DNA from: Isoetes taiwanensis
Lineage: Eukaryota > Streptophyta > Lycopodiopsida > Isoetales > Isoetaceae
Length of the DNA: 64,000 nucleotides
Direction: 5' to 3'
NCBI GenBank assembly: GCA_021234155.1
Contig: JAJEKV010000071.1
Coordinates: 6,260,236-6,324,235 of the forward strand
The notes under the pieces: model-generated
What the model saw: the letters and a program-made list of their open reading frames with translations, nothing else
What the model was told of the DNA's origin: nothing
Databases searched by the model: none
Shown: positions 765 to 50,859 of the stretch, one piece after another
How positions within the stretch are numbered: position 1 is the stretch's first letter
Layout of the letters: each line of letters opens with the position of its first letter
Program-made: the position numbers and the translations under genes

Positions 765-1105
765 GGTGTCTTGTGTATGATGACACATTCCCTAAGCCTG
801 AAGTGCAATATCAGAGAAGCTTTCGGTGGCCTTCCTTAAGTCCTCGAATTGCTTGTACATAATGCCAATTTGATCGGAGATGAAGTGCGATTATCTCCTT
901 CTTCATATAAGCAAGAATTCTTAAGTTCTCAGGTTTTGTCTTGAAAAATTTTTCGCCTTTGTTTGTAACGAGGGTGACTTTGACGATATGTTCCCACTTA
1001 ATGTTTCTTGAGGACCTTTCGACAATCATCGTAGTTCAAGCCCCTCATGCATCTAAGGTAGTTGTCGCTAAAGTAATCTTTGTCTTTTGCCCAATTGATT
1101 ACTAT

Positions 1106-1976
1106 CATTGGATCCAAGCAGAATTCCATGAATATGCCAAATAAAGGGCTGTGGAATTTCCACATCAGACCCACGTATAAGTTTGTGCACCCTATACAGC
1201 TGTTATACCTACATACATACATGATATACTTCAATCTATCTGGCGTAAAAATGCACGAACACCATTGCATTCACAAAAGAGAGATAAGAACAAAGGAGAT
1301 TGAAGAATAGATAAGAAAGAGAGATAAGAACAAAGGAGACCAAGAATGATAAGAATAATTTAGCACCGCAATTTCAAAAGACGAAGAGCTTTGCAACTCT
1401 CGCCAGATGCTCGAACAACGGAACTCAGCAAACTGGGTTCGCAAATTTGGTCGAAGAAGAACTACAACACAGAAGGCAGGCCTGGCTTACCACCCGAACA
1501 ACAAGATCCTCGCTTATCTTGTCTATGTAGAGTCATGTCTATCCCGAGGCCCGCCGCCAACAACAATCCTCGGAAACCATAGCCATAGCTGGAAACCGAA
1601 AGTAGCCATAGCTGGAGTAGCCAAAGCTAGGAAACCGAGTAGCCTATAGCCGGAGTAGGCATACCTAAAAACCAATCGCCACAATTCCGAGCAAAACCGG
1701 AAACAAGGGCACGTTGTTTTTATGCCCAAGCAAAATCGAAACCTCATACCGCACCTCCCCCAAAGCGAGAAACATGCTTCAAGGCCGACACGTGCATCAG
1801 ACGCCCACATCTGCATCATCGCTTACATCTCAGATCGCCTCATCGCCCATCATGCTCCTGGACGGGCCACGCCAATCGTAGAATTACCCAAGCTCCAAAA
1901 ACTACTAACAAAACCCTAACCCCCATTTTCCGCTACACCATTAACAAAAGCATTGTAAGAGATAATTTGCCAACCT
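1106..1976. mobile_element. 871 bp insertion inside copy A, flanked by TAT
   Basis: Copy C reads continuously from GQAI to NFAKDKDYFSD. In copy A the same two pieces are 0.87 kb apart. The inserted DNA is flanked by TAT at 1,103-1,105 and 1,977-1,979, a possible 3 bp target duplication. It holds a degenerate tandem repeat of AGCCATAGCTGGA (about 1,579-1,662) and short ORFs without recognisable similarity. I see no clear terminal inverted repeat, so the class is unknown. Confidence 0.5.
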
Positions 1977-2163
1977 TATAGCTTGACCCCTATTGTCCTT
2001 AAGCTCACCCTTCCTCCATTTATTCCACATTTGATTTAATAATGTATAAACATCATCGGCATGAAGAGCGAACCTATTTACGTGCCCTCGGAATCTTTCT
2101 CGCCATTTGAAGGTAATCTTTTGCAATAGAACTCACAATGTTAGAAGCGGGAGATGGCAAATG

Positions 2164-2185
2164 AAATAGCACAACGGCGCCATTT
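2164..2185. repeat. GCGC-type interrupted palindrome in an intron of copy A
   Basis: The arms AAATAGCAC and GCGCCATTT are separated by four bases (AACG). It sits between the segments homologous to DEYK and HYLEMAEK of copy C, which is the intron position of the much better preserved palindromes at 43,987-44,069. It has decayed by two mismatches. Confidence 0.6.
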
Positions 2186-3214
2186 ACCCACTAATATATG
2201 GCAAAACAGATATAAACATACCTTGTACTCGTCATTTCTTGACGCCCTTTTCAAATGGAGCCGGTCTTCCGCACCTCGATATTGCTTCCGCGATATGGTG
2301 GATCTGATCCGCATAAGGTTCCTTGAAGCAGTCTTGGCCACAATGTCATTGGCATCCACACTGAGCTAAAGAAGGTTCAGGTCACTAACTCTGCATATTC
2401 TAAAATTATAGATCTTCCTGAGCTCAACTCGCATCTTGTCCCCAACTTATCAGCATAAAGGCGAAAGCAGCAGGATCGAATGATTACCATTGATAATGTA
2501 GAAACGTTCCCTACGGATCAGATTCATGTGACCGGTCGGCAACACCTTTGTGTAATGGGATCAAAGGGCACCACATTTCTTCGGAGTGAACATCGGATGT
2601 GGACCTTCTCCAAAAATTTGCGTGAGCTTCCTTACATGCTCGGGATTAATAACCCTGGCGGTCATATTAGGTAGTGCCTCTTCTAGATCCCAAATGGATA
2701 TCCTCCTTGTGTATGTGACTCCAAGAGGAAATATGTGGTCCTGCTTCTGTATTTTTTTCAATGTTTCTTCTGCCATTTCCTCTTCGGCATTCCGGTCCAT
2801 CTTCAGTTCCTCGGGCACCTCAAGGTCTGCTATCTTTTGCAATTTCCTAGCCCGGTGCACTCTCTGCTGTGGAAGCTACCACTTTGTGTGTTTTGGAGCC
2901 TCCTTATTGTCACTAATAGTCCTCTTAGAATCATGCTTCCAAGTGGACTTCACAGGAGAATGATGTTGCTGCTCCTCTTGCTCATCCCTCTTCTCCTCTT
3001 GATGCTCGTCCCCCTTCGCTTCCTCCTGAGTCCGCTCTTGATCTGCCTGCCTTTGTCCTTCTTCTCCTCCTGCCTTCGTTCCTCGGGCTACTCTGGTGGC
3101 TGATTTGACCTTCACCCCCTTTCTAATCACCTCTCCCAGCATCCATCTGCTGTCCATTAGTGCTGGCATGTTGCCTGAGAGCTTCGCTCTAACAATGTAT
3201 GACATATTTAGCAA

Positions 3215-7696: not shown

Positions 7697-8004
7697 ATAT
7701 CTATTAACAAATTAAGAGTTAATTAGTTCATTACGCAAGAACTAATTCTACGGGATATGAAAAGAGCATTTTATGATTACATTGCACTGGAAACTATATA
7801 ACAAAAAACGGTCACATTCTTGCCTTCTCAATGGCAAGAAATCTACAAAACTTATTTATGCATGATAGAGTTTATGAACATTTGGATATAACAGCGTTTG
7901 AAAATTTGTAACGTCTCTTTAATCCTTCATTGAGCCATCATCATATTCCTACGCATGCAAAAAACAATCAGTTGAAACATCGAACATATGTTCGAAGTGA
8001 TACA
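7697..8004. other. Spacer between phosphatase remnant and copy B
   Basis: AT-rich spacer of about 300 bases with no recognisable coding. The minus-strand sequence TTAATTTGTTAATAG just right of 7,696 looks like a 3' splice site for the phosphatase piece. The copy B gene would end its transcript in this spacer. Confidence 0.35.
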
Positions 8005-11000
8005 TCATGCTTCACCTAAATCAAGGCTCAAGTATGAACCATATTCATCAAGCTGAAAATCATCTAGCATTTTTTTAACCTCACAATAAGTCGTAGAGTC
8101 ATGAGCTTGAAAAGGAATTGCATTTGGCTTATGGGTATAGAAAAGATTTTCACCTGTATTTTTGTTCTCTTCCTCTTGAGCTTGCTTTGGAGAGTGCAAA
8201 CCTTCCTCTTGCAACTGTACGTCACGCTCTTCTTCTTGTGCAAGCTTTGGGGAGCACAAACCTCCCTCTTGCAACTGTACCTCATGCTCTTCTTTATCAG
8301 TATGTTCTACCTCCCTTCTCTTCCTCATGGAGTTGTACGTGATGTGTTTCTAGTTCTATGTTTTGGTCTCCAGACTTTTCCTTTTCTACATCATGTGCAT
8401 CTGCATCCTCGTCTATATCTTCAATGTTCTGTACTTGTTCTTCCTCCCCTTCCTCTTCCTCTTCATCTACATCTTCATCTTCCTGACCAAGGGAGTCATT
8501 ATCAGAATGATCTTTTGGAGATGGTGTAGAGAGAACTTGTTGTGCAGTCTGAAAATCTGTAGATGTAGATCCTGGTTCTTGGACTACATTCAGTGCACCA
8601 GAATCTACCTGTACTTTTTTTTTTCAAAATATGAAATAATGGTAATTTTGAAAATCCAGATATAATAGCTTCAATTGCAGTTTTCTGAATAGAATTATCT
8701 GTCAAGACAATTGCTTGTCTACCCAAAAGCAATGCTTCCCGAGCAACATTGCCTCCACAATTAACCTCCATAATTGTTTGGTTTGGCCTAGAAAGAGAGT
8801 CAATAGACCTAAGTATACCGTTTCGCAATATCAAACCTTTGACAATTATTCCACGTTGCAGTCCACTGGCCATTGAATAACTCATCGGCTTCCTATATAA
8901 ATCCAATTATTTGGAGTCTTCACTTTGCAAGACCGGATCATAATCTAAATCTGGGTCATCTGTCCTAAAGTAAAGTGAGCAGTTCTTGTATAATAAGGAT
9001 TCCAGTGATCCTTTTACATCCTTTGAAACACGTGCAAGAATTACAAAGGTCTTTAGGGCATGAACACCTTTCTCTGTTGTGTTAGCTTCATGGTAGCCAA
9101 AAAGAATGTGCACTTTTCCCTCAATAGCTTCTAAGGTTTCTAAGCAAACATGTATCTCATACGGTGTCAAGAAAAAGAGATATGAATATGAGCTCTGCAA
9201 ATTCAAGAAACAACGCACTGACTATAAGCAATAACATGAAAGAATAATAGTATTAGAATTAAAAGCAAAATCACAAAGTACCTCTTTATTAATATCAGCA
9301 ACCAAACTGATGATGTCTTCAAAATCTTTTTTGTTCCACCCTTCTTGCGTGTGAACTACAATTAAATCTATAGCTCTATCTTTCTCAAAAATCCTGACAT
9401 CTTTCGTCTTAGTGACCTTTGGCCCTATGCTATACACAACAACAGCTTTATGGTGCATTATAACACGACCATGATCTGTATCCCACATAGCTTCAAGCTG
9501 ATCAGTGGCAAGGCTTGGCATATTGCCACTTTTACTTTTATCCAAAACCTTTTTACACCAACTTGAGCAATAACCTCTAAGTTGCTCCCATGATGAGGAT
9601 ATTGTAGGACTCTCTGCAAATAATCTTGATAAAGTCAGAGTTTGGTCACGGGTATAGTTTCTCATGTGAGTTAGCATGCCCTTTTTCAACACCCGACATT
9701 CTTTAATCCGATCAGCATAATCTGTCACATATTCTAACTTTTGTCCTTGTCCAGTCTTCCCTTTGCTCCAAGTAATTGAGCCTTTCAACAACGCATCAGC
9801 CACATCTTCTAACTCCTTAATGGTCAATTGTTGCGTGCAACGAAATAATGATAAGTTTATGTCTTTTCCACTTCTAGCACTTCCCATATTTCCCTGTGCA
9901 TCTGGCAACTCACCTTTGTTATAGAGATCAATTGCTCTACTCCACTTATCAAATATATGCCTCACTGTCGTTAGAAGATTGTAGATCACAGAAACTGTTG
10001 CCTTCCCCCCGAATGTGACTTTTGCAATTTGGTCAAACTCCTGTATTGTGAAGATTAAAAGCCACTAAGAAACCTCAAAACATGTGGGAAAATAAAAAAT
10101 AAATCAAGACGAAATAAAAAATTAATAATCACCTTAAATTCTGCACTTGTTGCCTTTCCTTGAACAGACTTTGGAGGCCATTTCATTATCTCAAATTGCG
10201 CTCTCGCTTGCTCAAACTGATCTAGAGAAGGTGAGACAAACTTATTTTTTTCATTTTTCTTGTTCGCCTCAGATGAGATTTCCATTAGCTTTAGCATTGG
10301 AGTGTCATGTGCAATGATCCTGGCCGCACGCATGCCCCACCTTTGCCTATATTCTGAGCTTTCTCCTGAAAGCAACTGCATTGCCCTCATTGAATGTTGA
10401 CCAGCAATTACTACAAACCTCGTATCTTTACTGCAAGCTTCACTCAAATTCTTTATGGAACGAGGTTGCAAAGTAATAGGATCTATAGGCAATAGATCAG
10501 CTGTCTCAGGAGTGCTAGTAGGATGTCGTAACATTTCATTCCTTAGCCATTGCATGTGACTTGGATTATACTTCCTATAGTTCCATTGGGCAAATTCCTT
10601 CGATATACTAAGGTCGGGAATGATGCAGTTATCGACATTAATCATAATAGGAAGTGGAAAACCAAATATAAAGTAATCTGAGCCCCTTTGGACTGCATCT
10701 TCAATGTTAAGCTGTTGTTTGTTCTTCTTACTCTTCGAACTCCCTGTCTCAATAACTTGCTTCCCTTTAGATGCCACATCCACAACCCTTACATCATCAT
10801 CTAACTTCTCAATAATAGCAGATCCTTCGTTTATAGAACTGGCATCAATACGTCTTCTTTTTGTTAAAGGTTTCTCCTTCCCCTCTTCTTGAGATTTCCT
10901 TTTTTTATTCACTGCATCCTCTTTGTCATTTGAGGTTTTTTCCTTCTCTGCTTCTTGAGACCTTCTTTTCTTCTTTTGTACATCATCTGTACCCTTCTCC

Positions 11001-13866
11001 TTCTCTCCGTCCTGTGACTTTCTAACCTTCCTTTGTGCATCATTTGTACCTTTTTCCTTTTCCCCTTCTCGAGACTTTTTATTTTTCTTTTCATCATCTT
11101 CCTTCTCTCCTTTTGAAGCATCTTTTTTCTTCTTCAATAATTTCGAACAGTTTTGAATACCGTTAGGCTTCTTATTTGCAAATTTTGCATAAACTTGAGA
11201 ACCTGTATCCTCTCTCGATAATTTGACACAAACCATACGTAGCCCATCCTTAAGATCATCATGGGAAGACAAACCAGCTGCTTTTAAATTGTTATAGCTA
11301 GACAACTTCCAACCATAACGTCTACAACTGACCTTAATTTCTTCGGTCTGTGCCATCTTAGTGATATCAAAATTTTCAAAGGACAAAGTATAACCATAGA
11401 CTTTATTATCTGTCGTATCTTCCACCAAGGCTTCAAGGACACAATTGCCATCTTCTCCGGGCACATCTTCAAGTTTTAACAATATTCCATAGATGTGTCT
11501 ATCTTCATCCAACAAGCAGACCTCATTACATGTTGTATACCCTTCTATGACTTCAAAAAACCATTTCTTCTGTAATAGATCTTGCTTCATATCATACCCT
11601 TCAAAACTAACATCTTCCAATGAGATTGCTCTGAATTTTGCATTCATATCTGTAAGGAAAAAACATAGGGACAAATATTAATAAAAATTGATGCCACAAC
11701 TTAATTTTAGAAAAACGAAACTTCCAACTTGTGTTGGAAGTCAATTCAACCATAAGATTACAAAACCAACTTGTGTTGGAAGTTCTACGAACATTCAAAA
11801 CCTCCAATTAAACATCAAACAAAAAATGACCTTTTAGACAATCCACCTACAATCTGGAAGATCCGTCTCAAAAATTAACTAGAGCTCTCACTAAGAAGTG
11901 TTGCACCCAACTTGTCTTGGAAGAACAAATATTAATTTTAGGAAAACGAAACTTCCAACTTGTGTTGGAAGTTCTATAAGATTCCAGTTCAACCATAAGA
12001 TTACAAAACCAACTTGTGTTGGAAGTTCTAGGAACATTCAAAACCTCCAATTCAACATCAAACAAAAAATGACCTTTTAGACAATCCACCTACAATCTGG
12101 AAGATCCTTCTCAAAAATTAACTAGAGCTCTCACTAAGAAGTGTTGCACCCAACTTGCCTTGGAAGAACTTCAAAACTCCAGTTCAACCAAAAAACTAGA
12201 AAATCAAACCTCCAACACATGTTGGAAGAAAGCAAACCTCAATTTTGTATACCTATGAACTCAACCCTAAACCTTCACAAAGATAAGGACCTCTATACAA
12301 AAAAACTTCGGATGTTGAAAAACAAGCAAAACCTCCATTTTGTATACCTAGCAACTCCATTCATAATTCATTCTAGAAGTTAATATGACCATGACTCAAA
12401 GACTTCCAACTTGTGTTGGAAGCAAACCCCAAATTTTATTCTTTGAAACCCTAACCAAATTTAAGAAGACAAAACCCAAGTTTCTAGGAACATTCAAAAC
12501 CTTCAAACAAAAGATGACCTTTTAGACAATCCAGCTATAATCTAGAAGACCTATCTCAAAAATTAGCTAGAGCTCTAGTTCAACCAGAAAGCTACAGTAC
12601 CAAACTTCCAACACATGTTGGAAGCAAGCAAACCTCAATTTTGTATACCTATCAACAAACTTCAAAAGGTTGGCCACAACAAATATATGGAAAAAAAAAA
12701 AGGGTTCAAAGTAGGTGGTGCTTCATTAAATGAACCTCACTTGGTATGAGAAGCTTACTTCCAACTTGCGTTGGAAGTTCTTTGCAACTCCAATTCAACA
12801 TCAAAAAAATGTTGGGAGGTGGTTGCTAGTTTATTAAAGTTAAGCATGACTATAAAGCTATGAAACCAAACTTCCAGCACATGTTTGAAGCTAGGTTAGA
12901 GAATCTAGTTTTAACTTCCAACTTGCGTTGGAAGTTCTTTGCAAATCCTACTCAAACCCAACAAATGTTGGTTGCTAGTTATTAAAACTATGCATAACTA
13001 TAAAGTTACAAAACCAAACTTCCAACACATGTTGGAAGCTAGCTAAGAGAATCTAATTGTTCTAACTTCATGTTGGAAGTTAGCAACAACTAAGATCTTA
13101 GAAATATTCATTTCCAAGCACATAGTGCTTCACTTGGATCTCACTTGGAATTAAAAGCTTACTTCCAACTTGTGTTGGAAGTTCTTTCCAAATCCTACTC
13201 AACCCCAACAAATGTTGGTTGCTAGTTATTAAAACTATGCATAACTATAAAGTTACAAAACCAAACTTCCAACATGTGTTGGAAGCTAGCTAAGAGAATC
13301 TAGTTTTAAACCTCAAGACATTATAATATGTAACTTCCAACTCATGTTGGAAGTTAGCAACAACTACAAAACCAAACTTCCAACACATGTTGGAAGCTAG
13401 CTAAGAGAATCTAGGTTTAAACCTCAGACATTATAATATGTAACTTCCAACTCATGTTGGAAGTTAGCAACAACTAAGATCTTAAAAATCCATTTTCAAG
13501 CACATAGTGCTTCACTTGGATCTCACTTGGAATTAAAAGTTTACTTCCAACTTGTGTTGGAAGTTCTTTCTAAATCCTACTCAACCCCAACAAATGTTGT
13601 TATGTTGGTTACTAGTTTATTAAAACCATGCATGACTATAAAGCTACAAAACCTAACTCAATAAATTATAAATCTAGGCAAAAACTAAACCTCAATGACT
13701 AAGACCTTAAAAAAGACATAGCAGGAAGCAATGCTTTATTGTCTAAAGCAAGAAATCTCATTTATTCATAAACTCAGCAAAATATAATGCACAGAATTCT
13801 TAAATTATTATTGTCATGCTACATAGTTTTGTGAAAGAAAGAAAACACACCTCTTTTAGTTGCCAT
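8005..13866 (-). CDS. ParB-like plus methyltransferase-like element protein, copy B
   Basis: Exons by eye on the minus strand: 13,866-13,851 (start MATKR), 11,651-10,133, 10,040-9,282 and 9,194-8,005, with donors and acceptors in phase; about 1,150 residues. Exon 2: N-terminal domain (residues 1-180), a basic Lys/Glu-rich repeat region (180-275, units like SQDGEKEKGTDD), then a ParB-like domain (about 345-510) with LLPIDPITLQ, RFVVIAGQHSMRAMQLL and SLDQFEQAR. Exon 3 matches the middle of copies A and C (KGELPD, then RC at the DNYLRCM position). Exon 4 has TIMEVNCGGNVAREALLLGR, aligned to VLDFFSAGAFSRASLHVGR of copy C, resembling motif I of N4/N6 DNA methyltransferases; no DPPY-like motif IV is visible. 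The tail is acidic. Lesions: an in-frame TAA at 8,907-8,909, a frame change at an A10 run (8,615-8,624) and one near 8,316. Either recently broken or with small missed introns. Domain calls are inference from motif order. Confidence 0.65.
11721..13563. repeat. Array of CTTCCAAC-N4-GTTGGAAG palindromes in copy B intron 1
   Basis: Thirteen copies have perfect 8 bp arms, starting at 11,721; 11,952; 12,403; 12,605; 12,758; 12,915; 13,019; 13,162; 13,266; 13,334; 13,377; 13,444 and 13,544. Degenerate copies lie near 11,764, 11,906, 12,007, 12,150, 12,209 and 12,871. The central four bases vary (TTGT, ACAT, TTGC, ATGT, TCAT) but the spacer length is always four. Distances between copies are irregular (about 45-450 bp). 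Some copies are carried in larger duplications, for example about 11,703-11,920 against 11,937-12,158, and about 13,261-13,360 against 13,372-13,470. Constant arms with a fixed spacer of free sequence fit a bound dimer better than an RNA hairpin. Confidence 0.9.
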
Positions 13867-16750
13867 CAATATGCAATAGCCTCAATATCCAATAGCCACA
13901 AATGATCTGTCATAATTTTAGGTGAAGATTGTCATTGGGTATAAAGAAATTGTAATCTCTTACGGTTCTATAGAATAGAACCGATGTTAATTCTTTATTG
14001 TGTATCTGAGAAAACATATGTGTTTATTGTGTGTCTAAGAAAACATAATGAAAATTGATGAGGATACCTGGGAAGAAATCTTGCAGTTATCACTACTCTG
14101 GACCTGTTTAGTATTTCTTTGCAACAGTTTAAGCACTGATTTGCACGAGATTAATGCTTCTTTGCACCAACTAAACCAGGATTACGCTTCACAAACACTT
14201 AAGAAGCTGATGTTTTGCAACAATTTTGAGAGACAGAAACGTATTTTTATGCTGTATTGCAGTAATCCTTCAGCCACAGTACTTAAGCCACAGTAAAAAG
14301 ATACATACTTCTCCACCTTTCTTGCAGTAATCCTTCTGTTACAGTAAACCTTCCTTCTGATACAATAATCACTCCGACACAGTAGCCATAGTAGAAAGCA
14401 ACATGTGCACTCCGCCCTTAGCCAAAACACGGCCGCCAAACACAATGGCAGAGCAAAAACGAATCGGAACAAAAAGGAGGAAAAAAAAAAAAAAAAAAAA
14501 GAACGAAAAAATCGGCATGTAATTCAAACTTTGATACACGTGGCATATAACCGAAAGAAATAATGGCATTAAAAATATATTAACGTTAATAAAACACACA
14601 TGGAATTAAAAACGTTTGTGGCAACGAATCTTGTAATTCAAAATTTCTTTTCCCGCATTCGAAGATCAAGGCCCAAGGCTGAAAGCATCTGAATCCTACA
14701 GCACTTCCACGATCATGGATCTGCAAGAGGTAAATCATAGCAAACTAATAAAATAAACACATTCAAAGTATGATTTGAATACTCCAAACCATTTCTTGAT
14801 TCGCAATATTCAATTTTATACTTTCTTGGGGCCGATCTCATGTTTAGACCAGCCCTATCCAAAGATTTACAGTTAAGAAATGCAACCAGGAATCTTGATC
14901 TGTGCGCGCTGATGCATGGTCGAATCTCCATTATCTGTTACCTGCAATGTTGTCCCCAAAGATCAGAGCGCTGAGAAACAAATGGTGTGACAAACTCGGC
15001 ATACAAAATGGAAGATTGAAGCAATCAAAAAGCAAACCAAACTTAGCTTACAGATCTTAGAACAGATGGCATGGCTTCGGCAAACGATTTGGCAAACAGC
15101 AGCAGTTCTGCCATGATAATGCACCCATACCAATCCCGTCACATTTTACAACAGATAGCAAGGCTTCGGCACAAATTTTAGAATAGATGGCATGGCTTTG
15201 GCAAACAATCTGGCTTCAGCACGATTTGGAGCAAAGGATTTGGCTTCAGCACGATTTGGGTGCTCCAACTGAAGCGCAATCTCTGGATGTTGAGCCCTCC
15301 AATTCAACATCAAAAAAATTCACTCCGCCCCATCATAAAGATCAAGCAATTTCTGAGATGATTTGCTTCAAGAAATCCAAGAAACAAACCCTCGCCGTGA
15401 GGAAAGATTCGAAAAACAGAAGATTCAGGTGTAAGAGAAGACATAGAACGGAGGTGGAGAAGAAGGGACTGGATCAAGGGCAAAATCGATGGAAAGAAGG
15501 GCAAAAAAGGGTAGAATAAGGTAAACGATTTGGCTTCGGCCGCGATTTGACCCATGATTACGCCATGACCTAATGGTTGACCCATGCCAGACCTCACCCT
15601 AGTTTTAGAATGCATAGAGTTTAGAGTTTTTCCAACCCTAACCCTAAATCCGAAAAGTCCCATTCATGCAGTTTGTTGTGATTTTTTTTTTTCCCTTATA
15701 ACCAACGTATGTTGGATGCAGCTTTGGTGTTGGGTTTTTTTTTTTTTTTGTCTTATAACCAACATATGCTGGATTTGCACCTTAAATTTCATTTCATTTC
15801 GACTCCTCATTTAGTTAGGCCTAGGCTTTAAATTGTTTTTTTTAATTACCTAACCAATATATATTCTACGCAATTTAAAAGCGGGTCCTAATTTTATTAT
15901 TATTATTATTTATCCAGCCCATGTTGGAACGTTGCGTTTTTTGAAATATTCAAGACATCAACATTGCACCCTAAATTTCATTTCGACTCCTTATTCACCC
16001 ACATGCTTTAGATTGTTTTTTTTCTTAATTATCTAACTAATATCGTGCCATGCTATTTAAGGCTATTAGTTTCAGTTTTCTTACTATTCCTGTTGTATGT
16101 TTCAGTTTTCTTACTATTCATCCAACGTGTGTTGGAAGTTTGTTCATGTGTTTCTTGAGTACTTTCTATAAACTAACCATTTTCACTAATTCTCGTCACT
16201 TTGGTATTTGCATAGGTTGGAGCTAAGAGAAGCGAGCCATGTCATTGTGGTCTTTAAGGTGCATATAACTACTTATTTTCATTAAGTAGGTCATGCAAAT
16301 TGACTTAGCTTTAGAGTAATATTTGCATTTTCTTTGACACCTTTGAGCAACGCCTTTTGATATCAATGTGTGTCAATGGGGGCATGGTCTAAAGAGTAAC
16401 ATTAGTTGGACATAAGTAGCCTCAATAATGCAAGAAAATGTATTATTTTTCTTCCTTTGTGGCTAGTAACAATTTGATAGTCTAAGGCAGCCGACAAGAT
16501 TTTGGAAAACTTAACCTCTTTTGTCAAATGTAAGCAAAAGAACCTAAGACTTAATGAGGTGTCTTATGTAGTGCTTTGTTATATATGGTTCTGATGGATT
16601 GGCCTTGTAACATTCAACATGTGTTGGAACTCTTTTACTATAGGTTCAAGAAGCTTGAAACAAATACATATTGGCATACCTATACAAAAATCAAGGCCAC
16701 TATGGCATCTCAGGTGTGTACGCCAGTAACCACTCAAAATAGGATATGTA
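13867..16750. promoter_or_regulatory. Divergent promoter region between the two pair-B genes
   Basis: This 2.9 kb separates the start codons of the ParB-like gene (13,866, minus) and the DUF7869 gene (16,751, plus). It contains weaker palindromes of the CTTCCAAC type around 15,702-15,715, 15,759-15,772, 15,913-15,928, 16,119-16,138 and 16,613-16,630. Direct repeats of GGCTTCRGCACGATTTGG-like sequence lie at about 15,059-15,260 and again near 15,530. A repeated TTGCAGTAATCCTTC occurs near 14,259 and 14,324, with an A20 run near 14,480 and T runs near 15,690 and 15,740. ORFs here (for example 14,048-14,296 and 15,187-15,519) show no family resemblance. Start sites cannot be placed. Confidence 0.5.
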
Positions 16751-19843: not shown

Positions 19844-20959
19844 TTTATATGAATTCAAAAGTCTTTTGCATTTATTCATTTTGTTATATATATGTATCTT
19901 TATATAGTTTTTTTCCTTGAATATTTAAATAAATATTGAGATGTGATGAAGATCAAGCAATCAAAGTTTCAATTTGAAAATATAGATATGTCTAAAAACT
20001 TTGAATAAGTCTAATTTTTCCTAAATAAGTGGGACACAGAGTTTTTGACATGTCCATAGCTGCTCACAGAAGAATACCAAATCCCCAGGGATCTCTACCG
20101 TGCCTTTGATATCTGCTTGCTTCTTGGGACTCATATGATGGCAGCGGCCACCCTTTTTTTTTTTGGCCGACAAAGGCACGGTTCTTTATGTTGGACTCCC
20201 ATCATTGTCGGTCGTAAGCTTCGCCATTCCATACAATAGAGATCAATGCTAGCATTGACGGGGATCCTCCATGTGCGACCAAGAAAGTCAAGTCTTCCCC
20301 GCTTCTCGACTTCCCTCATGTTTACTATGATGCCCATCCGGGGCCATAAATTCCTCTCTCACCTCACCAAAGACGGGACTTGACAACAAGGCAAAGCTCT
20401 CGCCTTTTGTCGCCCTTTGTTGGGTCCACCGACTTCCCCAAAGGTATGGCTATAACAATCTCCATGAACCAAGACACGCCGACCGGGACGAGGGGTCTTT
20501 GATGTAACTACATTTTGTGCCTTGGTAGCAACTGGCTTCTAAGATAAACATGGTAAGAAAATGGCATGTATCCACTTAGCACGATGATTAACGTGATATA
20601 TGAAATGGGCAAGTCGCCATTTGAAGAAAATAAAAGACGTCGCCATTTGAAAATGCCTCTCTAATCTTAATGAGGTGCATGAGTTGCGCCATTTCCTATT
20701 CATGCACCTCATTAAGACCGAGAGGAGACTTCGTAGGCATCCTCGAGATGGCACACAAGCCATTTACATGAAATGGTGCACCTCGCCATCTCGAGGATGC
20801 CTTCATCAGTCTCCTTGTCTAATGAGTGCATGGAGGAAATAAGCCAATATGCACCTCATTAGACCAAAGGGAGATTTCGTAGGCATCCTCGAAATGGCAC
20901 AGATGCGTCATTTCATATAGCTACGGCTACTTAAGTTAAACCTCCTAAATACCGAGGTC
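19844..20959. other. Downstream spacer and unrecognised, GCGC-palindrome-bearing DNA
   Basis: 19,844-20,040 is an AT-rich 3' flank of the DUF7869 gene. 20,040-20,960 reads weakly coding-like on the minus strand (for example RLDFLGRTWRIPVNASIDL at about 20,230-20,300, with stops), but I do not recognise it. Degenerate GCGC-type palindromes lie at 20,603-20,622 and 20,892-20,913. The latter sits in a duplicated sequence containing GTAGGCATCCTCGARATGGCAC, seen near 20,735 and 20,878 and in inverted form near 20,785. Confidence 0.35.
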
Positions 20960-21600
20960 ACGCTATTTCTATATGGAAGGGGTGGCCACGGCTTGACCAC
21001 GCACTCCATGATATAGAAATGGCGTGTCCAAGCACCATTATAGTAGCCTATGCTAGTCTAAAAAGATAAGAATCAAACAAGAGAGAGACTAACCCGAGCG
21101 GCTCACGGATTTTCAGCGAAGATTGCGCCATTGTATTTGTATGTCATATAAATACACGTCCATATAATTATTACTCCAACTTTTTTTGGCCGCTCCCGGA
21201 TCAAAAGCTAGAGAGAGAAGGCAATTGAATAGGAGAGAGAGAATGTTGCGCTAGGCGTTGAAGGGGGCGAGGAGAGGCAAAAAAGAAATGAAATGAAATG
21301 AAAAGTGGCACAAAAGAAAAAAGATAAGTCCCTAAAAAGGAAATGAACCCGCGAAAAGAATTGTTTTCCCGCTTGGCGTGGTCGCCTCTCAAATTTTTCA
21401 AATTTGAATTTGCCTTGATCCGCCTCTCCAAATTTTTTCAAATTTGAATTTGCCGTCTGCCTCTCCAAATTTTTTCAAATGTGAATTTGAATTTGCTTGT
21501 CCGCCTCTCCCAAGTTTGAAATTTGAATTTCCCGCCTGCTCATCTATCAATTTTAAAAAGTGCCCGCCCGTATTTTGAAGTTTGAATTTTCCCGTCTGTA
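20960..21600 (-). pseudogene. Promoter and first-exon relic of a ParB/methyltransferase-type gene, copy D
   Basis: On the minus strand this block matches 43,110-43,710 of copy C. The first exon is 21,131-21,094 (MAQSSLKIREPL, against MAQSSLKIQEPG in copy C), followed by the same donor GTTAGT. A TATTTATA box lies about 16 bp upstream of the ATG. Further upstream (21,350-21,600) is the same kind of minisatellite: AATTTGAATTT units separated by C-rich DNA. Beyond intron 1 the homology ends near CCATTTCTATA at about 20,960-21,020. The body of the gene is absent or unrecognisable. Confidence 0.65.
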
Positions 21601-36200: not shown

Positions 36201-36915
36201 GATTGGACGGACATAGCGACAAAGCATGGCTCGGTGAGACATCTGAGACCCAAGACGGGCGGCTCGCATTACAAGTTTTTAATCAGACCAACAGATGGGA
36301 CACCGGGGTACCGGGATAACATATTGGGGAAGAACGAAGGGACATACGGGTCGGTCGGGATGGGAAGCCACGACCTAAGAATCGAAAAGGACGGATGGAG
36401 AGGGATAGACAAGGAGGATAGGATATGCGGGAATATGTGACGGGGGGAATAGAGGATGAAAACCATATGATTAACGAACGCCCGATCTATGGGGACATCG
36501 GGGTGATGATATAGAAATATAAAGTGGGGAACCAATCCACGTGATGATGAAGATGACGGAAGATAGACGGACGGGATGCAGCGAATCATCCAAAGAATGA
36601 TGACCCATAATGAGACGCATTACACGATTGAAAGAGGGCTTGTAATATGATGCATACCACTGGGTCATATAGCCCCACACAAATTGCTCAGCTAAAAGCT
36701 GATTGATAACGACGCGATCACCGCACCCGCCAAGAAGCCGAGGTAAAGCGGGGTCTTTGGTATAAAGGAAAAAGTCGCCTTCCGAAAAGGCTACATTAAA
36801 ACAAATGTGATGTGCTAGTAGCACCCTTGTAGGGAGCTTTCGCCCATGCTACACAAGTCCGGGGGCCTTACGGCACAAAGGACATAAATGTATTCTATTC
36901 TATTCTATTCTATTA

Positions 36916-38785: not shown

Positions 38786-41700
38786 CTATGTCTTTCCACA
38801 TGTCTACAATATATTTCGGAATTTGGATTGTTTTCGGCCTCTTGCCATTGGCATCCCAAGCATAATGAATAGCATCTAAATTCTCGTACCTTGAAGGATC
38901 GGAAGGATTAGGCCGCCAACGCTTAGTTAAGGTCCTTGTAGTCCCCTCCAAAGGCTTCCACCGGGATACAAAAATATGGCCAAAATATGTAGATTCGGAT
39001 CAAAAACGGCATTCTCCCTGCATATCCTAACCAAGTGGCGGTGTTATCATCTCAGGTCGACTAGAACAAACATGCCCTTTGTCACATATGCGTGAGGATC
39101 AAACTCTTCAAGAGGCAACACTGGGCGGCCATCGGCGGGCCACAATATGATGGTAAAGGTCGGCGTGACCAAAGGCGAATCGCCGACCTCGGAACAAATC
39201 TTTGTTTGTTCTAGAGGAGCTTGTCTTGTTTGTGGCCAAAATGCATCATTTTGAGGGCGTCCCGAGCAACATCCTCCAAAGAGATAAGAAGTCTGGTTCC
39301 AATACTCAACACTTGCCGGTGTATTGCCTTGCAAACAAGCTACTTTCTTGATTCTTACATATGTCCTTCCATAGGGGAGATGTATTTGTTGATGCTATCC
39401 TTCAACCCCGGAAGATCCTTCAATGTTGGTCTAGGAGGAATATTTTGTGGCACACCACTTGGTAGCATTGGCTGACCATGTTCATCCTCTTTCCACATTC
39501 TAACTCACGGAGAATCTGGCTGGAAGCCACTCTTTATGTGTAGGACGATGTTGTATTGCATAACGGGCCAATCTCCGCCATCTTAAATTTGAAGAGCAAT
39601 GGTTCAAGTATGTCCAACTAGCGTTGGCCCTTATCGGGGATGAATCCCTTCACAAAAGCCTTCCAATTTGGAACTTCATCAATAAAGTATGGAATTGGAG
39701 ATTTTGCATTGCACTTATTTGAACAAGTAAAGTAGCTCGGTAGTGTCAAAGCATCCAGATGAACTCATCAAGGTTGAAAAATTTCCAAATAAAGCATCAA
39801 TATCATCATGGGTGTGGCCGACCATCATAAAGCCCACTTGGATCTCATCAAAGACCTTAAGCCAAGTCAAATAAGATAAGTATGAAAAGACATACCTATT
39901 TTTGTTTTGCCTTACGATGCATTATCAAGTTGCAAGTAGAGATTGGGGGAGAGGGTTGAACACCTCGGGATTCGTTGTAGTTGAAGCATTTGGCAATACT
40001 TACGCCATAGAAGCATGTTTGTTCTTCAAAGGATTGGTATCCTTGATTTGCTTGCATCCATTTGCAATCTGCGGGCTTACTTCCACATAAGTCACCTATC
40101 TTGTCCTCTTGTACCAATTCCAAGTTATGCAATATCCTAGAAAGTGAACCAATGTGGAAGTTTGAATCATCTTTCCATAAATCAAGTGAGAAATGACCAT
40201 AGGCACGACCACCATGCCCATGAGTGAGCTCTGTCAAAACGCTCTTCAAGCGATCACCTCTCCATACAGATTTTGCTAGATGATGACTTTCTAGGCACTA
40301 AAGTCTTAACCCGATCCATCTTATCATGTATTATACATAGATGATTTTCGGACACCGATGTGACAATGCTCTCAATGCCAATATTGACTTCTGCAAGAGC
40401 GTTGCTCTAGCATATGAGCCCGGCGTTGAATTGCAAGATTTCGATCTCTCTCTTGTATCTTTTGTTTTTCCAGCTTTTGCTTAATTACCACTTGCCAGAT
40501 GTTGCATTTAGAGAAGGCTGTATTTTTGCAATGCTAACATCACGGAAATTCTCTTTTCCATATACTATAAAAAGAGTTCAAGGCTACAGATGTTCCTGTA
40601 AGCTCTTCAACCACAGCACCAACTTCTTTATATATAAGCTTCTTATTAAGAATGGAAGGAAGCTTGCGTACATTTTCTCTCACATCATCTCTACCTCTTT
40701 TGCTCCTATGGGGAATATTTTCAGCATTCTCTGAATGAATGAATCCTTCTAGCACACATTCGGTGTGGCCAATGTAGAAGATCTAGGCTAAGAGCCAGTA
40801 TTACCATGTTCAGCTACCTTTCCACCTGCTTCAAATCTATTTCTCCAATTGTAAAATGTTGTTGGTGATACCTAAAGCCATGCGCCAACCAGCCAGACAG
40901 AATTCCATCCCCTTGAGCACTATCCTGTCCTCTCCTTCTCCTGTGTAAGTCACACTCAGCACGTCAAAAAAATATGTAACCCTTGCATTGTATGGTTGGG
41001 ATAAAAATTCTTTTCTTAATTCACATACTTGATGCTTGGTAAGTTTCTTGTTGCAAGTATTTTTGCAGCAGCTTGACTTCATAAACTTGTTGATGGAACT
41101 TGTGGAGCATAGCCTTTCATCTTTGGTCTTTCCCTTGGGCTCTCTTGGAATTCTTTTTGTGTAAGTATACTTCCTTTTTCGTTTGAATTGAGCCTGAATG
41201 TTATCCTCGAATGATTCTAGCTCTATATCCTCATTTTCTTTAGCTTCTCGAGCTTGCAGATGTTGTGAGACAGTCCTTCCATCCTGCAGCACCACATCGC
41301 TATTTTCCCATTGTACAAGTGCATTTTCTGCTGGCCTTTCTGCACAAGCATGACATTTGAGATCCTCTGTAATTAGTGCAGGAAAGACCTTTCCCACACA
41401 GAGGCCCACCTTTGAGTCTCCTAAAAATTCATCGTCAACAGCATCCTGGGGATCACTAAAGAGAATTATGGCCTCTGCATATTTACTTCTGTCACATGCA
41501 TGAAGAATGTGGCAATGCTTATCCAAGAGATCTGTTCTTGAGAAACTAGCTGGTGGTTCATCATCATCTGATGCTATTCTGCGAGGAAATCGAGTAGCTA
41601 GATCCACTGTAGGATCAATTTCTTCATCTGCATCTTACACTGCCTCTACAGATTCTATATTCGAGGTCAGTGGTGGAGTAGCTAAATCAATGGCATTCCA

Positions 41701-42330
41701 TCTTATATCCTGCCGAGGCCATTCGATATACGTCCCCACAGCCTCTTCAATGTTGTCCGCACTAGCACATGGAATCGGAAGGATGTGGGTAGGCACTACA
41801 GCCTCGGTAACTTGCACTGCTACGTTGAGTGCGTCAACATTCTTCCCATGGATGGAAGTTCTATTCACCCAGACACCCTTACCAACCACAGTATTATTAC
41901 TGACAAGGTTCACCACCATATTCTACGTCTTTAGCGTCTTTGTTTGAAGGAGCGGGCGTCGAATCGAAGTCGATGATGTTGTGGAGGGACTACTAGGCAA
42001 GTTGGGGGTTTCGATTATCGAGGCGTTCCGATGACACGGGTGAGGCGGTTTCCACAGTATTTTACTTGATTTGAGGCCATTCGATAAATGTCCCCACGGC
42101 TTGGCAATGTTATCGCTCCCTCACTGCGGAATGGGAAGCACATGGGTGGGCACTATGGCTTCGGTGACCTCCGACCACATTGCACCATGGAATGTTCTGC
42201 GCCATGCGAGATGGCCTCTATGCAATTCATGTCCCCCCGGCAGCTACCACATCCCCATCGACAAGCCACGCGGGGCCTTTTCTGTAAGAATCAATACACA
42301 TACATACTTGTTAAAGACATGCAACCCTCC
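38769..42330 (-). pseudogene. DUF7869-type transposase-like gene, decayed copy of pair C
   Basis: Minus-strand segments line up with the intact gene at 16,751-19,843 from N- to C-terminus: an N-terminal module with VPTHILPIPC and GTYIEWPRQD (about 41,700-41,800) and a second tandem copy of it at 42,060-42,210; a Cys-rich part KSSCCKNTC (41,070); FCLAGWRMALGI (40,890); KRGRDDVRENVRKLPS (40,680); LCIIHDKMDRVKT (about 40,310); LTHGHGGRAYGHF (40,215); VGHTHDDIDALF (about 39,810); PNWKAFVKGFIPD (39,680); KGMFVLVDL (39,060); and KRWRPNPSDPSRYENLD (38,910). The aspartates of DKMD and HTHDDID are kept. Stops and frameshifts between segments show it is inactive. It is divergent from the ParB/methyltransferase-type gene at 43,585. 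Confidence 0.8.
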
Positions 42331-42971
42331 ATGACATATGCATAGTAAAAATAGTTGAAAATTTGAAAGAAATTAGGCGACATGGGACAAATGGCGCGGT
42401 ATTTGCTCCATTTTTTAAATGGCTAGTCGGCGCCATTTACCTTTAAATAAGCGCGCAGGTAGCGCCATTTAATTTTACAACAAATGGGCCATTTTCCTTT
42501 GCCGGGTAAAGTGGGGGGCTTGCATTTTTATCGAACGCGGAAAATTTGCGCCATTTAAAGCAAAATGGCCATTTACCTGGCAAAGGAAAATGGCCCGTTT
42601 ACACGTACATGGCATCTTTAATCTAAATGCTATATCTAATGTTATGGTATCTTATTACTACAAGATTCAGCAATCAAAGAAAATGTACCCTTTAAGACAT
42701 CAATTGTTGAGAACTTATCTACTGACGCAAAATAGAGAAGATGTACCCTTCAAAAACTTAATCTGTTTAGAATTATGGTCAACGAGCAACACACTGAAAA
42801 GAATTCTCAGTAAATACACAACATTAACCTATACAATCTACCATCTCCAGATCCATCCTACATCAACTACAGTGGGAGTACATATTTAACATACTAAAAC
42901 TGCATAGCCTCTAACCTGGAGGTCATTGAGGATTCCGGATCTGCCATCAAGATTGAATGCGCCTCAAGATT

Positions 42972-43330: not shown

Positions 43331-43679
43331 GGTGAAAGTGAAAGCCCGTGGAGTTTATCTTTTTCTTTTCCCTCCACTTTTCATTTCATTACTTTTGCGC
43401 CAGCGCCTCTGCCTCCCACCTTCGCCTTCCTCCAGCGCCCAGCGCCTTCCGCCTGTTCTCTCTCTAGCGCCTGTTTGATTCAAACATTTTCTCTCTCTAG
43501 CGCCTGTTGATCGGGGGCGTTAGGAAAAAAAAAGTGGGTGACTTTTATCACGGTCCAGTACTTTTATCTTTGTCTACGAATACAATGGCGCAATCTTCGC
43601 TCAAAATCCAAGAGCCAGGATCAGGTTAGTTTCTGATGTTTCTATTCTTAGCTAGTTTGAGTAGCGTTAGATAAACTAT

Positions 43680-43699
43680 AATGGCGCGTCCGCGCCATT
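43680..43699. repeat. GCGC-type palindrome in copy C intron 1
   Basis: AATGGCGC, four bases (GTCC), then GCGCCATT: perfect 8 bp arms. It is followed by TCTATA, shared with relic D. Confidence 0.85.
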
Positions 43700-43986
43700 T
43701 CTATAGGAGAGGCCGGGGTTGTGACCACTCAGGAAGATCTATACTATCAGAATATGCAGAGTTTTATCTGGACAGATCAGTGACCTGGACCTACTTCAGC
43801 TCAGTGTCGATGTCAATGATATTGTTGCCAAGACAGTTTTCAAGGAACCCTATGTAGACCAGATTCATCATCTGCGAAAGCAGTATCAGGAGTGCGGAAG
43901 ACCAGCTCCTGCCGGAAAAGGCCAGTCTAGAAGTGACGAGTACAAGGTACGTTCACGTGTGGTACAGTTTTACGTTTACATTTACT

Positions 43987-44069
43987 ATTAGTGGTAAATA
44001 GCGCAGCGCGCCATTTACCACTAATAGCGCAGCTGCGCTATTTGTAGTTAATGGCGCAGCTGCGCTATT
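43987..44069. repeat. Cluster of three GCGC-type palindromes in copy C intron
   Basis: The first (43,987-44,025) has 18 bp arms beginning ATTAGTGGTAAAT with one mismatch around AGC. The second (44,023-44,042) is perfect: AATAGCGC-AGCT-GCGCTATT. The third (44,050-44,069) is AATGGCGC-AGCT-GCGCTATT. They occupy most of the short intron between DEYK and HYLEMAEK. Confidence 0.9.
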
Positions 44070-45735
44070 TGATTTGCCATCGCTAATTCTAACGTCGCCA
44101 ATTATATTGCAGCACTACCTTGAAATGGCTGAGAAGATTCTCAGAGGCAAACACCCGAAGGACGTCAATAGGTTTGTCTTTATGCCAGATGATGTTTATG
44201 CACTTTTCCGTCAGATGTAGAACAAATGGAGGAAGGGAGAACTTAAGGACAATAAGGGTCAAGCTATAGTAGTCAACTTTGCAAAAGACAAAGACTACTT
44301 TAGTGACAACTATCTTAGATGCATGAGGGGCTTGGACTACGATGATTATCGAAAGGTTCTCGAAGAAACATTGAATGGGGACATATACGTCAAAGTCACC
44401 TCATATTACAAAGGAGAGAATTTCTTCAAGACGAGAGCGCAGAACTTAAGAACTCTAGCATATATGAAGAAGGAGATTCTGCATTTCATATCAGATGAAC
44501 TAGGCACTAAGTACAAGAAGTTCGAGGATCTAAGGAAGGCCACCGACCATTTTTCAGATATGACACTTCTGGCTTGGGGAGTATGCCACCATAAGTGGGT
44601 ATCGGAAGGAATACTCAAAGAGGGAGTTCATGGTAACATGCCATTCTCCTTGGCCAGATCTATTAGAAAAATCCTTAAGCCCGAAACAGAAAAGGACTTG
44701 CCAAGATACTTTGTTGAACATGTCACTGCCGGGGGGATTCCGCTGGAAAAGGCAACGCTGCCTGCAAGCATGATATGTTTAGATGCAAGGCAACTTACTC
44801 CTGTTTGGAATAGTGAGACTGTAACAGCATTCTTCGACAGCGTCTCACAGATGACAGATGTAGAGACTTACTGGATTCTATGTTTCGTCAAGCCGGAGCA
44901 AAACTTTCTATTCGCCACTGCGCTTGAACGACTAGAATCCAGGTCAAGAGTTTTTGTGGGAATGTATGAAGAGGAGGCTGGAGCTACAGGTGCCACAAGC
45001 TCTCGTTCTTGCTACGAGGATTTCTGCACACACGGGAGAGCCTGATGAAGACCTGGATCTCAGGCTGTATGGTAATCATCCTCGGAATCTCCCGGCAATT
45101 CCTCCTATTCCTAAAGAAGCCATCGGAAGTGAGGGAGATGTTATGGCTAAAACTCACCGCAAGGCGGGTTTAAATTCGGTTGGCAAGGTATGGAAGGAGA
45201 ATACCTGGTTCATAAGCAGATTGGTCCTGCAACTGCGTTCTACCTTGTTGATAAGCTCTGCCCTCCAGGTAACATCGTACTAGATTTCTTCTCTGCTGGA
45301 GCCTTCTCTAGGGCATCACTTCATGTAGGAAGAATCAGTGCGACATATGAGCATGACTTCGGAAAGATCAAATGCATAATGGGCATTCTGGGTAGGGTCG
45401 AGAACGTCATATACCCCTTGCTTGACCCAAAGGCCATTGGCGCACGCGAAGTTCTGACTATCAAAGATGGTGGAGCAGCCGGGGCAGAAAATGAGGGGGA
45501 CGAATCAGGTGCTCATGCAGAGAAGGGTGAGACATCCGGCCAAGGTGGACCTGAGGGGGAGGAGCAAATTGACCGCAGTAAGATTAACATTGAAGACTAC
45601 GAGAAAGTCAATGATGAGCACTTTGCCCACGACTACTAAAAAAATTGTATCTCCATATGAAAAATTGTATACAAATTGTATTTTTGTTAATATATAACTA
45701 CATGGACTTGTGTATAAAATGTGTTCTCTATAGGG

Positions 45736-45845
45736 AAATAGCGCGAGCGCACTTTTTGCTTATTCTTTTCGTGATAGCAAATAGCGCGCCTGCACCATTT
45801 GTTTGGTTTCACGTTAAAGCAAATACCGCGTCCGCGCTATTTGCT
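45736..45845. repeat. GCGC-type palindromes downstream of copy C
   Basis: Three copies: 45,736-45,755 (spacer GAGC, decayed arm), 45,779-45,800 (AAATAGCGC, spacer GCCT, GCACCATTT) and 45,818-45,845 (12 bp arms AGCAAATACCGC / GCGCTATTTGCT around GTCC). Half-sites follow near 45,855, 45,940, 45,965 and 45,990. Confidence 0.8.
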
Positions 45846-48300: not shown

Positions 48301-50052
48301 GGACAATCGCCGAGAAAAATTGGTGAGAATATACTTTGTTAGTTGAAATGTACGGATTGTTTCTAACGGAGCAAGAACATCTTACACGAATTGCAGGTAA
48401 TGATTTGTTAACTAAATGCTTACTCTACATCTTTGAATGGTCATATTTACAGAGCTTACTCCGCAATATGGTTGGGTTCGTAGATGATAGTTTTGTGGAA
48501 GTTTTAGTTGAACAGACTCTAGAAAACCAATTTTGGTTTCGTGTTAGATGGCAATGTTCTTCCCCCAAATGGTTGAGTCGTCCAAATTGTGTGCATCAAA
48601 AGTCAAAAGATTGATGTTAACTTAGTGTTCAACCCAAAAATACAAAAAGTGTTAATACAAAAGTGTTAAGATTCGATCCAAGTTGATGTAGGCATGAGAA
48701 GTACAAATCCCCATTCTTATGTATGAATCATTTGAGAATGCTCGCATTTTATTTGAACTACATGAGAGAAGAGCTTTTCTCATTTTCATAGTTAGTCTTT
48801 GAAATCTAAGTAATGTTTAAATTTGCCTAATATTTTATTGAATGCTAGTTTACTCACGTTACCCATGCGGTGCTATGGCGATGAGTGGCGGATCTGGATA
48901 AGAAGGTAATATTTGTGGCTTTTTGAGGATCCAACTGTTAAGGAATTTTTTATTTTAAGTGGGATCACCTCTATAGAATGGATTATCAAGTGTTTATCAA
49001 GCATCATCGTAGATCAAAGGCCGATATTATCATGGCGGGTACTGTGTGCTCAGATTCGAAGACAAGGCAACTTCCTTGGTCTAATGAAAATAAATCCTGA
49101 AGGAGATATTATTTAGTTTGCAGAAAAACCAGAAGGAAGTGCGTTAAAAGCAATGAAGGTAAAGCGTGAAGACCATAGGTTTTAATCTCAGCATTTCATG
49201 AACAATAAAGAAGACATTATTATGCATTCTTGAGCTTCATAGATTTGGCAATCTGGTCAGCAAAGAGGCCATGGTGAATTTACTCATGAAAAAGTTTCCA
49301 ATGAAGCCTCTGATGATCAGAAATTTGTGATCGGTTTCTTTCCAAGAAGGACCAGCTTGATTTTAAGCTGGGTAAAATTAGCTAACGTTAAATTTGCTTT
49401 TACAATTCTCATGCGCCATGACCGTTTATCAGCCTACTCTAGAAACTTCTGAGCTATCATGGGTATAAGGAGCCAGATTCATTTCAATATCTTAAATAAG
49501 AAGGATTGTCAGACCAAATGGGCAAGAAAAGGACCGTTTATTTTGTTTTCGCATATGATTCTCTTAATGCTTTTTTAACAGAAGTAACCTTACTTATTTT
49601 TCATAGATACGCTGATGAAATTGGCTGAAGGGGTTTTGGAAAGAAAGAGGCTAAAGCAAAAGTCGATGCTATACAATAGACCTGTCCGATTACAAAAGTA
49701 TTAATGGAGCATTTGAAGCAAATGGATTTATTTGGGTCTGTGGAAGTGTTGGCCAGTTTTCTCAGTACATGATTTCTAGTCTATTATCCACATGAAATCA
49801 CCATTTGTTTAACATTGCATCTTGGGAGGTGTAACATTGGTGCTCCATTAACCCGGCCGCCCGAAATTTATGGAAACTAGTGTTGAGATGTTCAGTGAGG
49901 GTCTTCTTTATACCTTCGATGGGGGCTTTATGGTCATTTGCACAATCATAATATGGCAGCTTCATACCGGGTTTTTATCGAGTCATAGTGCCTTGCAAAG
50001 CGGTCTAATGCAACATGTTTGAAATATGAACGTCCAAGGTCCTTTGGATGCC
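48301..50052. other. No recognised gene
   Basis: Short plus-strand frames at 48,336-48,614 and 48,913-49,116 have plausible composition but match nothing I know. A stretch near 49,607-49,680 (possible acceptor TTTTCATAG followed by a basic frame) also remains unidentified. Possibly degraded exons of the plant gene whose KLCR-like part lies at 50.8 kb, but this is not shown. Confidence 0.25.
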
Positions 50053-50476
50053 TAATGATTTGGGCAAGATGCAGCTTATTTGTAAACATATAAAGTGGTG
50101 TTACCAACATAAATTCGATGTTGCAACAATGCAACTCTTATTTCCTTTCCAAGCAAAAAAATTAGTGTTTGTGCGTATGAAGTGAGCTTTTAGTGATGGT
50201 TATTGTTTTATGATGTAAACTACTTGGGCAATGCATGCCATTTTGCGACTTCCACTTCCGATGTGTAATGATTTGGGCAAGATGCAGCTTATTTGTAACA
50301 TATAAAGTGGTGTTACCAACATAAATTCTGATGTTGCAACAATGCAACTCTTATTTCCTTTTCCAAGCAAAAAATTAGTGTTTGTTTGTATGAAGTGAGC
50401 TTTTAGTGATGGTTATTGTTTTATGATGTAAACTACTTGGGCAATGCATGCCATTTGCGACTTCCACTTAGATGTG
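50053..50476. repeat. 213 bp tandem duplication
   Basis: Two units (50,053-50,265 and 50,266-50,476) start TAATGATTTGGGCAAGATGC and differ by only a few bases and short indels, so the duplication is recent. No coding function seen. Confidence 0.9.
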
Positions 50477-50859
50477 TAATGTCTTCCAACCGTCAATTGG
50501 AATTGTTTGACAATGACATGCTTTTGGGCCCCTGCAAGGGTGTCCTGACATGAAGACTTGCAGTAAGACATAACAGGTTATTCTCCTTTTAACTTCTGGA
50601 TTTAATTAGAACAAATGGGAATTTAAACATTAGTAATAAAACATTTATCATTTAAAACACGTTTTGTATAATACTTAAGCCAAACAATGAATATCAGTGG
50701 AAACTGTTGGTCCTATCGAAAGCGATTCATCGTGTAACCGGTCTATTAAAAGGGAGAACCATGCATCTATTGCCTCAGATTTGTAAGTCCGCCATATCTT
50801 TGAGGATTTGGGCATGAAAGCAAGTGTCGAGAATTTTTGGGAGACATGGGGCTGGTCAT

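Follow-up and report, generated by a model that had tools for sequence, protein, structure and literature searches.

Can a mobile element write an address into its own non-coding DNA, and can two lineages of one kind of element come to spell that address differently? The question is raised by 64,000 nucleotides of Isoetes taiwanensis (assembly GCA_021234155.1, contig JAJEKV010000071.1, forward-strand positions 6,260,236 to 6,324,235), the whole of which we call the window. A ParB/methylase-like gene occurs here as three copies, A, B and C, and as a fragment, relic D. New here is that B and C are each two-gene loci with homologous proteins, in which palindromic dyads occupy intergenic DNA, introns and flanks. 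The word in copy B is ACTTCCAAC-N4-GTTGGAAGT, and in A, C and D it is AATRGCGC-N4-GCGCYATT: one layout, two unrelated spellings. Lineage-specific self-recognition codes are in our judgement the best explanation, one that rests on a single split between lineages.

A scan for palindromes with 8-base arms, at most one mismatch and a 4-base spacer found 74, twice the mean of 37 that 30 block-wise simulations gave. The B word forms the largest recurrent family, with 16 sites where the largest simulated families averaged 3.3 and never exceeded 6. The C word comes next with 4 sites, which is within the simulated range at that stringency, so its significance rests on exact, mismatch and half-site counts. 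Three sites match the C word exactly (43680, 44023 and 44050; shuffle mean 0.00), ten do so with up to three mismatches (mean 0.39 and maximum 3 in 100 shuffles), and the half-site AATRGCGC has 20 exact matches, compared with a mean of 2.24 and a largest count of 7 in 100 simulated windows. Spacing is tight. Exact convergent B half-sites no more than 30 bases apart have a spacer of 4 in 13 of 13 pairs; the five such C pairs have spacers of 4 (three pairs), 3 and 30. When half-sites are taken by one exact arm alone, and so are not chosen by both arms, 28 of the 35 B half-sites and 11 of the 20 C half-sites have, at spacer 4, a partner matching at least 6 of 8 bases; any other spacer from 0 to 12 yields partners for at most two. 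The first-pass annotation had proposed that the two families have the same layout and unrelated arms, and both statements are confirmed.

Each word also keeps to its own kind of element, as had been suggested when the sites were described as subfamily-specific, with a code common to C, A and D. A scan with matrices derived from the B and C sites themselves, allowing spacers of 3 to 6 and set so that about one match per window would arise by chance, gave 24 B-type matches, 23 of them within 7977-16631 and one at 50482 with spacer 5, and 16 C-type matches, none of them outside A, C, D and the flank immediately upstream of D. The same scan gave no B-type match in A, C or D and no C-type match in B. 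Outside both elements lie only the B-like match at 50482 and, of the 35 B half-sites, three single ones. All 20 exact AATRGCGC half-sites fall inside the A, D and C zones and none in B, the zones having been delimited with sites already known; in blocks set by homology and open frames only, 11 of the 20 fall in 3.8 kb (binomial P 3e-9).

Within the elements the sites avoid coding sequence. None of element C's 17 half-sites starts there, although it makes up 42% of the stretch (P 1e-4), and one overlaps the start codon; in element B, 1 of 31 starts in coding sequence, which is 44% of that stretch. The overlapping half-site occupies 43584-43591 in copy C, and a half-site overlaps the start codon of relic D likewise, at 21125. 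Both genes of element B are flanked by B-type sites, at 7977, in the array, and at 16118 and 16610. Element C has intergenic palindromes at 42417 (spacer 4) and 42448 (spacer 5), and one of its introns contains three sites where the same intron of copy A has one. Relic D retains decayed sites at 20771, about 20892, 20947 and 21017, with spacers of 3, 4, 4 and 6; it also contains a self-complementary fold-back of about 194 bases (76%) at 20668-20861. Eight of the nine C-type sites in the first-pass list turn out to be real to within 4 bases: the three exact ones, and those at 2165, 20893, 45737, 45780 and 45822 (given as 45,818), which show 1-2 mismatches and small offsets. The ninth, at 20,603, is absent at up to three mismatches, its symmetry being limited to the outer AAATGG/CCATTT. 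Sites beyond that list are those at 43996, 42417 and 42448 and the decayed ones of relic D at 20771, 20947 and 21017.

What are the elements that carry these words? In B and in C a DUF7869 gene stands head to head with the ParB/methylase-like gene, an opposite-strand arrangement found in both of the elements where both genes are visible. The predicted exons of copy B run 10133-11647, 9282-10040 and 8910-9194 to an in-frame stop, past which the frame remains open to about 8502. Copy C has predicted introns at about 43627-43776 and 43949-44112, and its reading is interrupted twice, by an in-frame stop near 44219 and by a break of frame past about 45045; predicted introns across the genes of the window measure 87-164 bases. 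The DUF7869 relic of element C was recovered by tblastn, its main pieces at E 1.6e-46 and its C-terminal pieces at 2e-7. Coding remains of copy A may extend to about 3200, and relic D, whose left limit at 20560 is approximate, matches copy C at 77% over 21012-21141. In their aligned parts C, A and D are 77-84% identical in DNA.

DUF7869 (PF25273) was the sole family in a Pfam scan of the intact open reading frame (ORF) of element B at E 0.1, which returned no Mutator-like transposase. At E 0.001 the ORF has 62 homologues; those with names belong to a liverwort (Riccia), a moss (Ceratodon), Mytilus and Branchiostoma, the nearest ones being unnamed. Together with the predicted introns and a reverse transcriptase fragment, these homologues give the window a eukaryotic look, with a land plant as its likely host. 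No structure matched the model significantly in Foldseek, a search of solved structures with the DUF7869 alignment gave a single hit at E 0.29, and a second-look aligner found a resemblance to DDE integrase/transposase cores; a BAH- or chromo-like barrel lies near the C-terminus. Judging from the model, DUF7869 is probably a DDE-type transposase. A literature search on DUF7869 found no paper.

The second protein is the ParB/methylase-like one. Homology joins the proteins of B and C across about 340 residues, with a score of 142 where shuffles give 38 ± 5 (0 of 200 as high), and likewise the ParB-like parts of B and A (58 where shuffles give 32 ± 4.5, again 0 of 200). Read by eye, this part has GQH in B and GNH in A, within VVIAGQHSMRAMQLL and IINGNHSILLL respectively, which we take to have the look of a ParB signature; no library, profile or fold confirmed it. 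The end of copy C reads like methyltransferase motif I: in a methylase profile comparison none of 100 shuffles scored as high there (1 of 100 for the whole reading). In B an in-frame stop precedes the motif I-like part. Searched against phages, an 81-residue piece of C matched 48 records, 45 of them from Gordonia, with a best E of 0.6, and among the matches listed (15 of the 48) all are annotated methylases; against plasmids, one of four records is a methyltransferase. The top phage gene carries Pfam N6_N4_Mtase, has no ParB match at E 0.01, and counts among its relatives some annotated as ParB-domain methyltransferases. A DPPY-type motif ([DNS]PP[YFWH]) is present in 11 of 11 aligned phage proteins. 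The readings of B, C and A all lack it, as does every one of the three frames in B and in C; copy A has one DPPY, in a different frame. Neither the B nor the C protein has a confident Pfam match, and solved structures match their pieces at chance level only. The ParB-like piece has no match among phages, and among plasmids 6 records at E 5-10, the single one examined being uninformative. No IMG/VR locus was confirmed for DUF7869 or for the ParB-like piece.

How might these parts work together? B and C, with relics A and D, would represent a single kind of mobile element that split long ago into two lineages, each with many copies of its own dyad, 8-9-base arms around a 4-base spacer, spread over intergenic DNA, introns and flanks. 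The dyads would be bound by a dimer of the ParB/methylase-like protein that the element itself encodes, its catalytic motif apparently lost. This protein is the nearest candidate binder because it is common to both elements and its presumed kin bind DNA. Binding would let the element be recognised as self, its genes kept expressed or its chromatin open, while other DNA is spared; and the word would change in step with the protein, so that the lineages no longer serve each other. The suggested effect on silencing is drawn from VANC (PMC5735166, PMC10398659) and from an algal proposal (PMC12477816). The first-pass annotation suggested that sites and binding protein diverged together, as they may have done at the one split seen here. 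We give this account an even chance of being right. A bolder version, in which a DUF7869 transposon, probably of land plants, has turned a catalytically dead ParB-methylase into a sequence-specific self-recognition factor, each lineage spreading a 9-4-9 word of its own through promoters, introns and flanks as an anti-silencing code that arose independently of VANDAL/VANC and converged on it, is a doubtful proposition.

The most durable alternative gives the dyads to the other protein. They would be binding sites of the DUF7869 protein, resembling the subterminal repeats known from other DNA transposons and serving synapsis and excision rather than gene control. We think this unlikely: 22 of 24 B-type and 6 of 10 C-element matches lie between genes or in introns, the matrix scan found no own-type site 3' of the DUF7869 gene in either element, and terminal repeats were not found in the flanks searched. 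Less probable again is a host origin, in which promoter elements recognised by a DNA-binding protein of the host were captured or amplified to give the dyads. The B array does begin some 70 bases upstream of the predicted start codon; yet two words in homologous elements would call for a pair of host factors alike in dyad geometry, and elsewhere in the window there are stray B-like matches only.

Might the palindromes act as structure? As stem-loops in RNA, with a 9-base stem and a 4-base loop, or as cruciforms, they could serve small-RNA production or replication, for example. The constant 4-base spacer fits a tetraloop, and C-type arms pair at 83.3% against 81.4% in shuffles (37 of 500 as high). 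Compensatory changes, however, are not in excess, at 1 cell of 108 for B (116 of 500 shuffles as high; 12 distinct sites) and 3 of 90 for C (127 of 500; 10 distinct sites), and the B array lies outside the predicted coding region. Arm changes are mostly one-sided. A dyad bound by a dimeric protein is favoured over a hairpin because these 12 and 10 sites, a small sample, show no compensatory excess, and we regard the structural reading as improbable. In A and D several arm changes turn CpG into TpG or CpA, the pattern expected of methylated dead copies, though two sites in the 3' flank of C have changed likewise. The observed/expected CpG ratio falls from 1.60 for the 3' flank of C through 0.71 for A to 0.12 for the B array, in the last case partly because the B word lacks CpG. 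Fragments resembling miniature inverted-repeat transposable elements (MITEs) were set aside as a source of the C-type sites, the flanks of which are unrelated. That the dyads have no function, being a short repeat multiplied by tandem duplication and left behind, is just as improbable: the B array is partly tandem (148-base period, 82%) and several B sites have common flanks, but the array sites fall into six flank groups and an unrelated second word has the same geometry in a homologous element.

Several observations weigh against the self-recognition account itself. No copy is clearly working, three (C, A and D) being relics and B being interrupted by an in-frame stop; the window offers one lineage split only, B versus A, C and D. 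The flanks searched around elements B and C (and A) yielded no convincing terminal inverted repeats. Sites in unrelated flanks do have like arms and unlike spacers, which speaks for the account, but that comparison, unlike the one-arm test, is partly circular, the sites having been picked by their arms. Pfam, PHROGs and NCBIfam give no support for a ParB identity. In a ParB profile comparison 77 of 100 shuffles matched or beat the A piece, and 1 of 100 did so for the B piece, whose alignment lay away from its GQH motif; in a hidden Markov model (HMM) search each real piece scored below some shuffle. A single-sequence fold of the ParB-like piece was unusable (predicted local distance difference test, pLDDT, 33). 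Methylase identity has some support in C and none in B, which 26 of 100 shuffles equalled in the profile comparison. Finally, among the 7,996 and 7,997 candidates scored out of 5.8 billion proteins, no relative reached E 1 for B or for C.

The rest of the window has its own inhabitants. Just beyond the last site of element B, 7237-7710 encodes a fragment of an NLI-interacting-factor-like phosphatase (PF03031, E 4e-11), either a host gene or captured cargo. The stretch 31000-36900 is strand-biased and resembles a long interspersed nuclear element (LINE), with a piece of RVT_1 reverse transcriptase at 35391-35753 (E 4e-10); it has no matrix match of either palindrome family. A direct duplication of about 220 bases, 95% identical, occupies 50047-50481, and a MITE-like inverted repeat of about 325 bases, 75% self-complementary, lies at 52913-53237.

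Features of elements A to D in the window (positions count from its first letter)
Feature	Position	Strand	Basis or remark
Copy B, ParB/methylase-like gene	8910..11647	-	Exons predicted
Element B, intact DUF7869 ORF, 1030 aa	16751..19843	+	Pfam PF25273, E 7e-49
B-type palindrome array, ACTTCCAAC-N4-GTTGGAAGT	11720..13564		Upstream of B gene
B-type site, B gene 3' flank	7977..7998		Score 16.8; null maximum 14.8
B-type site upstream of B-element DUF7869 ORF	16118..16139		Score 22.8; null maximum 14.8
B-type site upstream of B-element DUF7869 ORF	16610..16631		Score 16.1; null maximum 14.8
Copy C, ParB/methylase-like gene relic	43585..45640	+	Homologous to B; methylase motif I region
Element C, DUF7869 gene relic	38790..41952	-	tblastn with intact DUF7869 ORF as query
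Element C intergenic region	42389..42600		Half-sites 42390, 42430, 42462, 42548
C-type palindrome, AATGGCGC-GTCC-GCGCCATT	43680..43699		Exact; predicted first intron, copy C
C-type palindrome, perfect arms, 3-base spacer	43996..44016		Matrix scan, half-site pair; predicted second intron, copy C
C-type palindrome	44023..44042		Exact match; predicted second intron, copy C
C-type palindrome	44050..44069		Exact match, aligns with the single site of A; predicted second intron, copy C
Three C-type palindromes (45737, 45780, 45822)	45737..45841		1-2 mismatches, matrix scan; 3' flank, copy C
Copy A, C-type ParB/methylase-like gene relic	776..2393	-	blastn, 80-84% to copy C
C-type palindrome, matching intron of copy A	2165..2184		1 mismatch; aligned to copy C
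Relic D, C-type copy reduced to its 5' end (start codon, first intron)	20560..21141	-	blastn, alignment
Decayed C-type palindromes, relic D	20771..21040		Scan

Which known systems do these elements resemble? Bacterial ParB acts at parS, palindromic sites close to the gene that encodes it, and here too palindromes lie near the gene of the candidate binder. As in phage ParB-methyltransferases, the methylase-like piece of C aligns at motif I; unlike the phage proteins, the B, C and A readings lack the DPPY motif, and unlike bacterial and phage systems the genes here have predicted introns. TnpA of En/Spm is an element-encoded second protein that binds subterminal repeats of its own element and affects promoter methylation. 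Repeated short motifs within the element are likewise candidate sites for an element-encoded second protein here, but TnpA sites lie near the element ends, and here the flanks searched yielded no terminal inverted repeats.

Arabidopsis VANDAL transposons, which are Mutator-like, had been put forward in the first-pass annotation as the closest precedent. As a functional analogue VANDAL/VANC is apt, and that half of the suggestion stands; family membership does not, the partner gene here being DUF7869. The VANC21 study (PMC5735166) reports its motifs from non-coding DNA, namely introns, intergenic regions and element termini, where tandem repeats add and remove them. Set beside it, the Isoetes elements also have short subfamily-specific motifs in non-coding DNA, two words for two lineages. 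They may show a similar turnover of sites, with three in C against one in A in one comparison of copies and a B array that is partly tandem; the VANC21 motif as given there is a 9-base word, whereas ours are dyads of 20-22 bases.

By gene content the nearest described system, and a closer relative than VANDAL, appears to be algal. Among the matches listed in a literature search on ParB with transposons (land plants, Mutator, algae, Chlamydomonas, moss), only one paper was relevant, that on Ectocarpus by Dinatale et al. (2025, PMC12477816). It describes an accessory protein of Sola1-1_Ec32 that combines ParB with an N4/N6 DNA methyltransferase, which the authors propose binds and epigenetically modifies its own transposon. 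The likenesses are an accessory gene opposite in strand to the transposase, if DUF7869 is the transposase, and, putatively, ParB-like and methylase-like parts within one protein. The differences are the DUF7869 partner, a ParB part that here is read from a motif and was not confirmed by profile, readings of B, C and A that lack a DPPY-type motif, and two dyad families here where the text consulted names no target sites. The B and C dyads thus offer concrete candidate target sites for a ParB-methyltransferase-like transposon protein, and two homologous elements that spell one layout in different ways give a handle on whether transposons evolve private address codes. Were our account true, the dyads would be a route to studying sequence-specific escape from silencing, and a second, unrelated kind of protein would do in these elements what VANC does in Arabidopsis.
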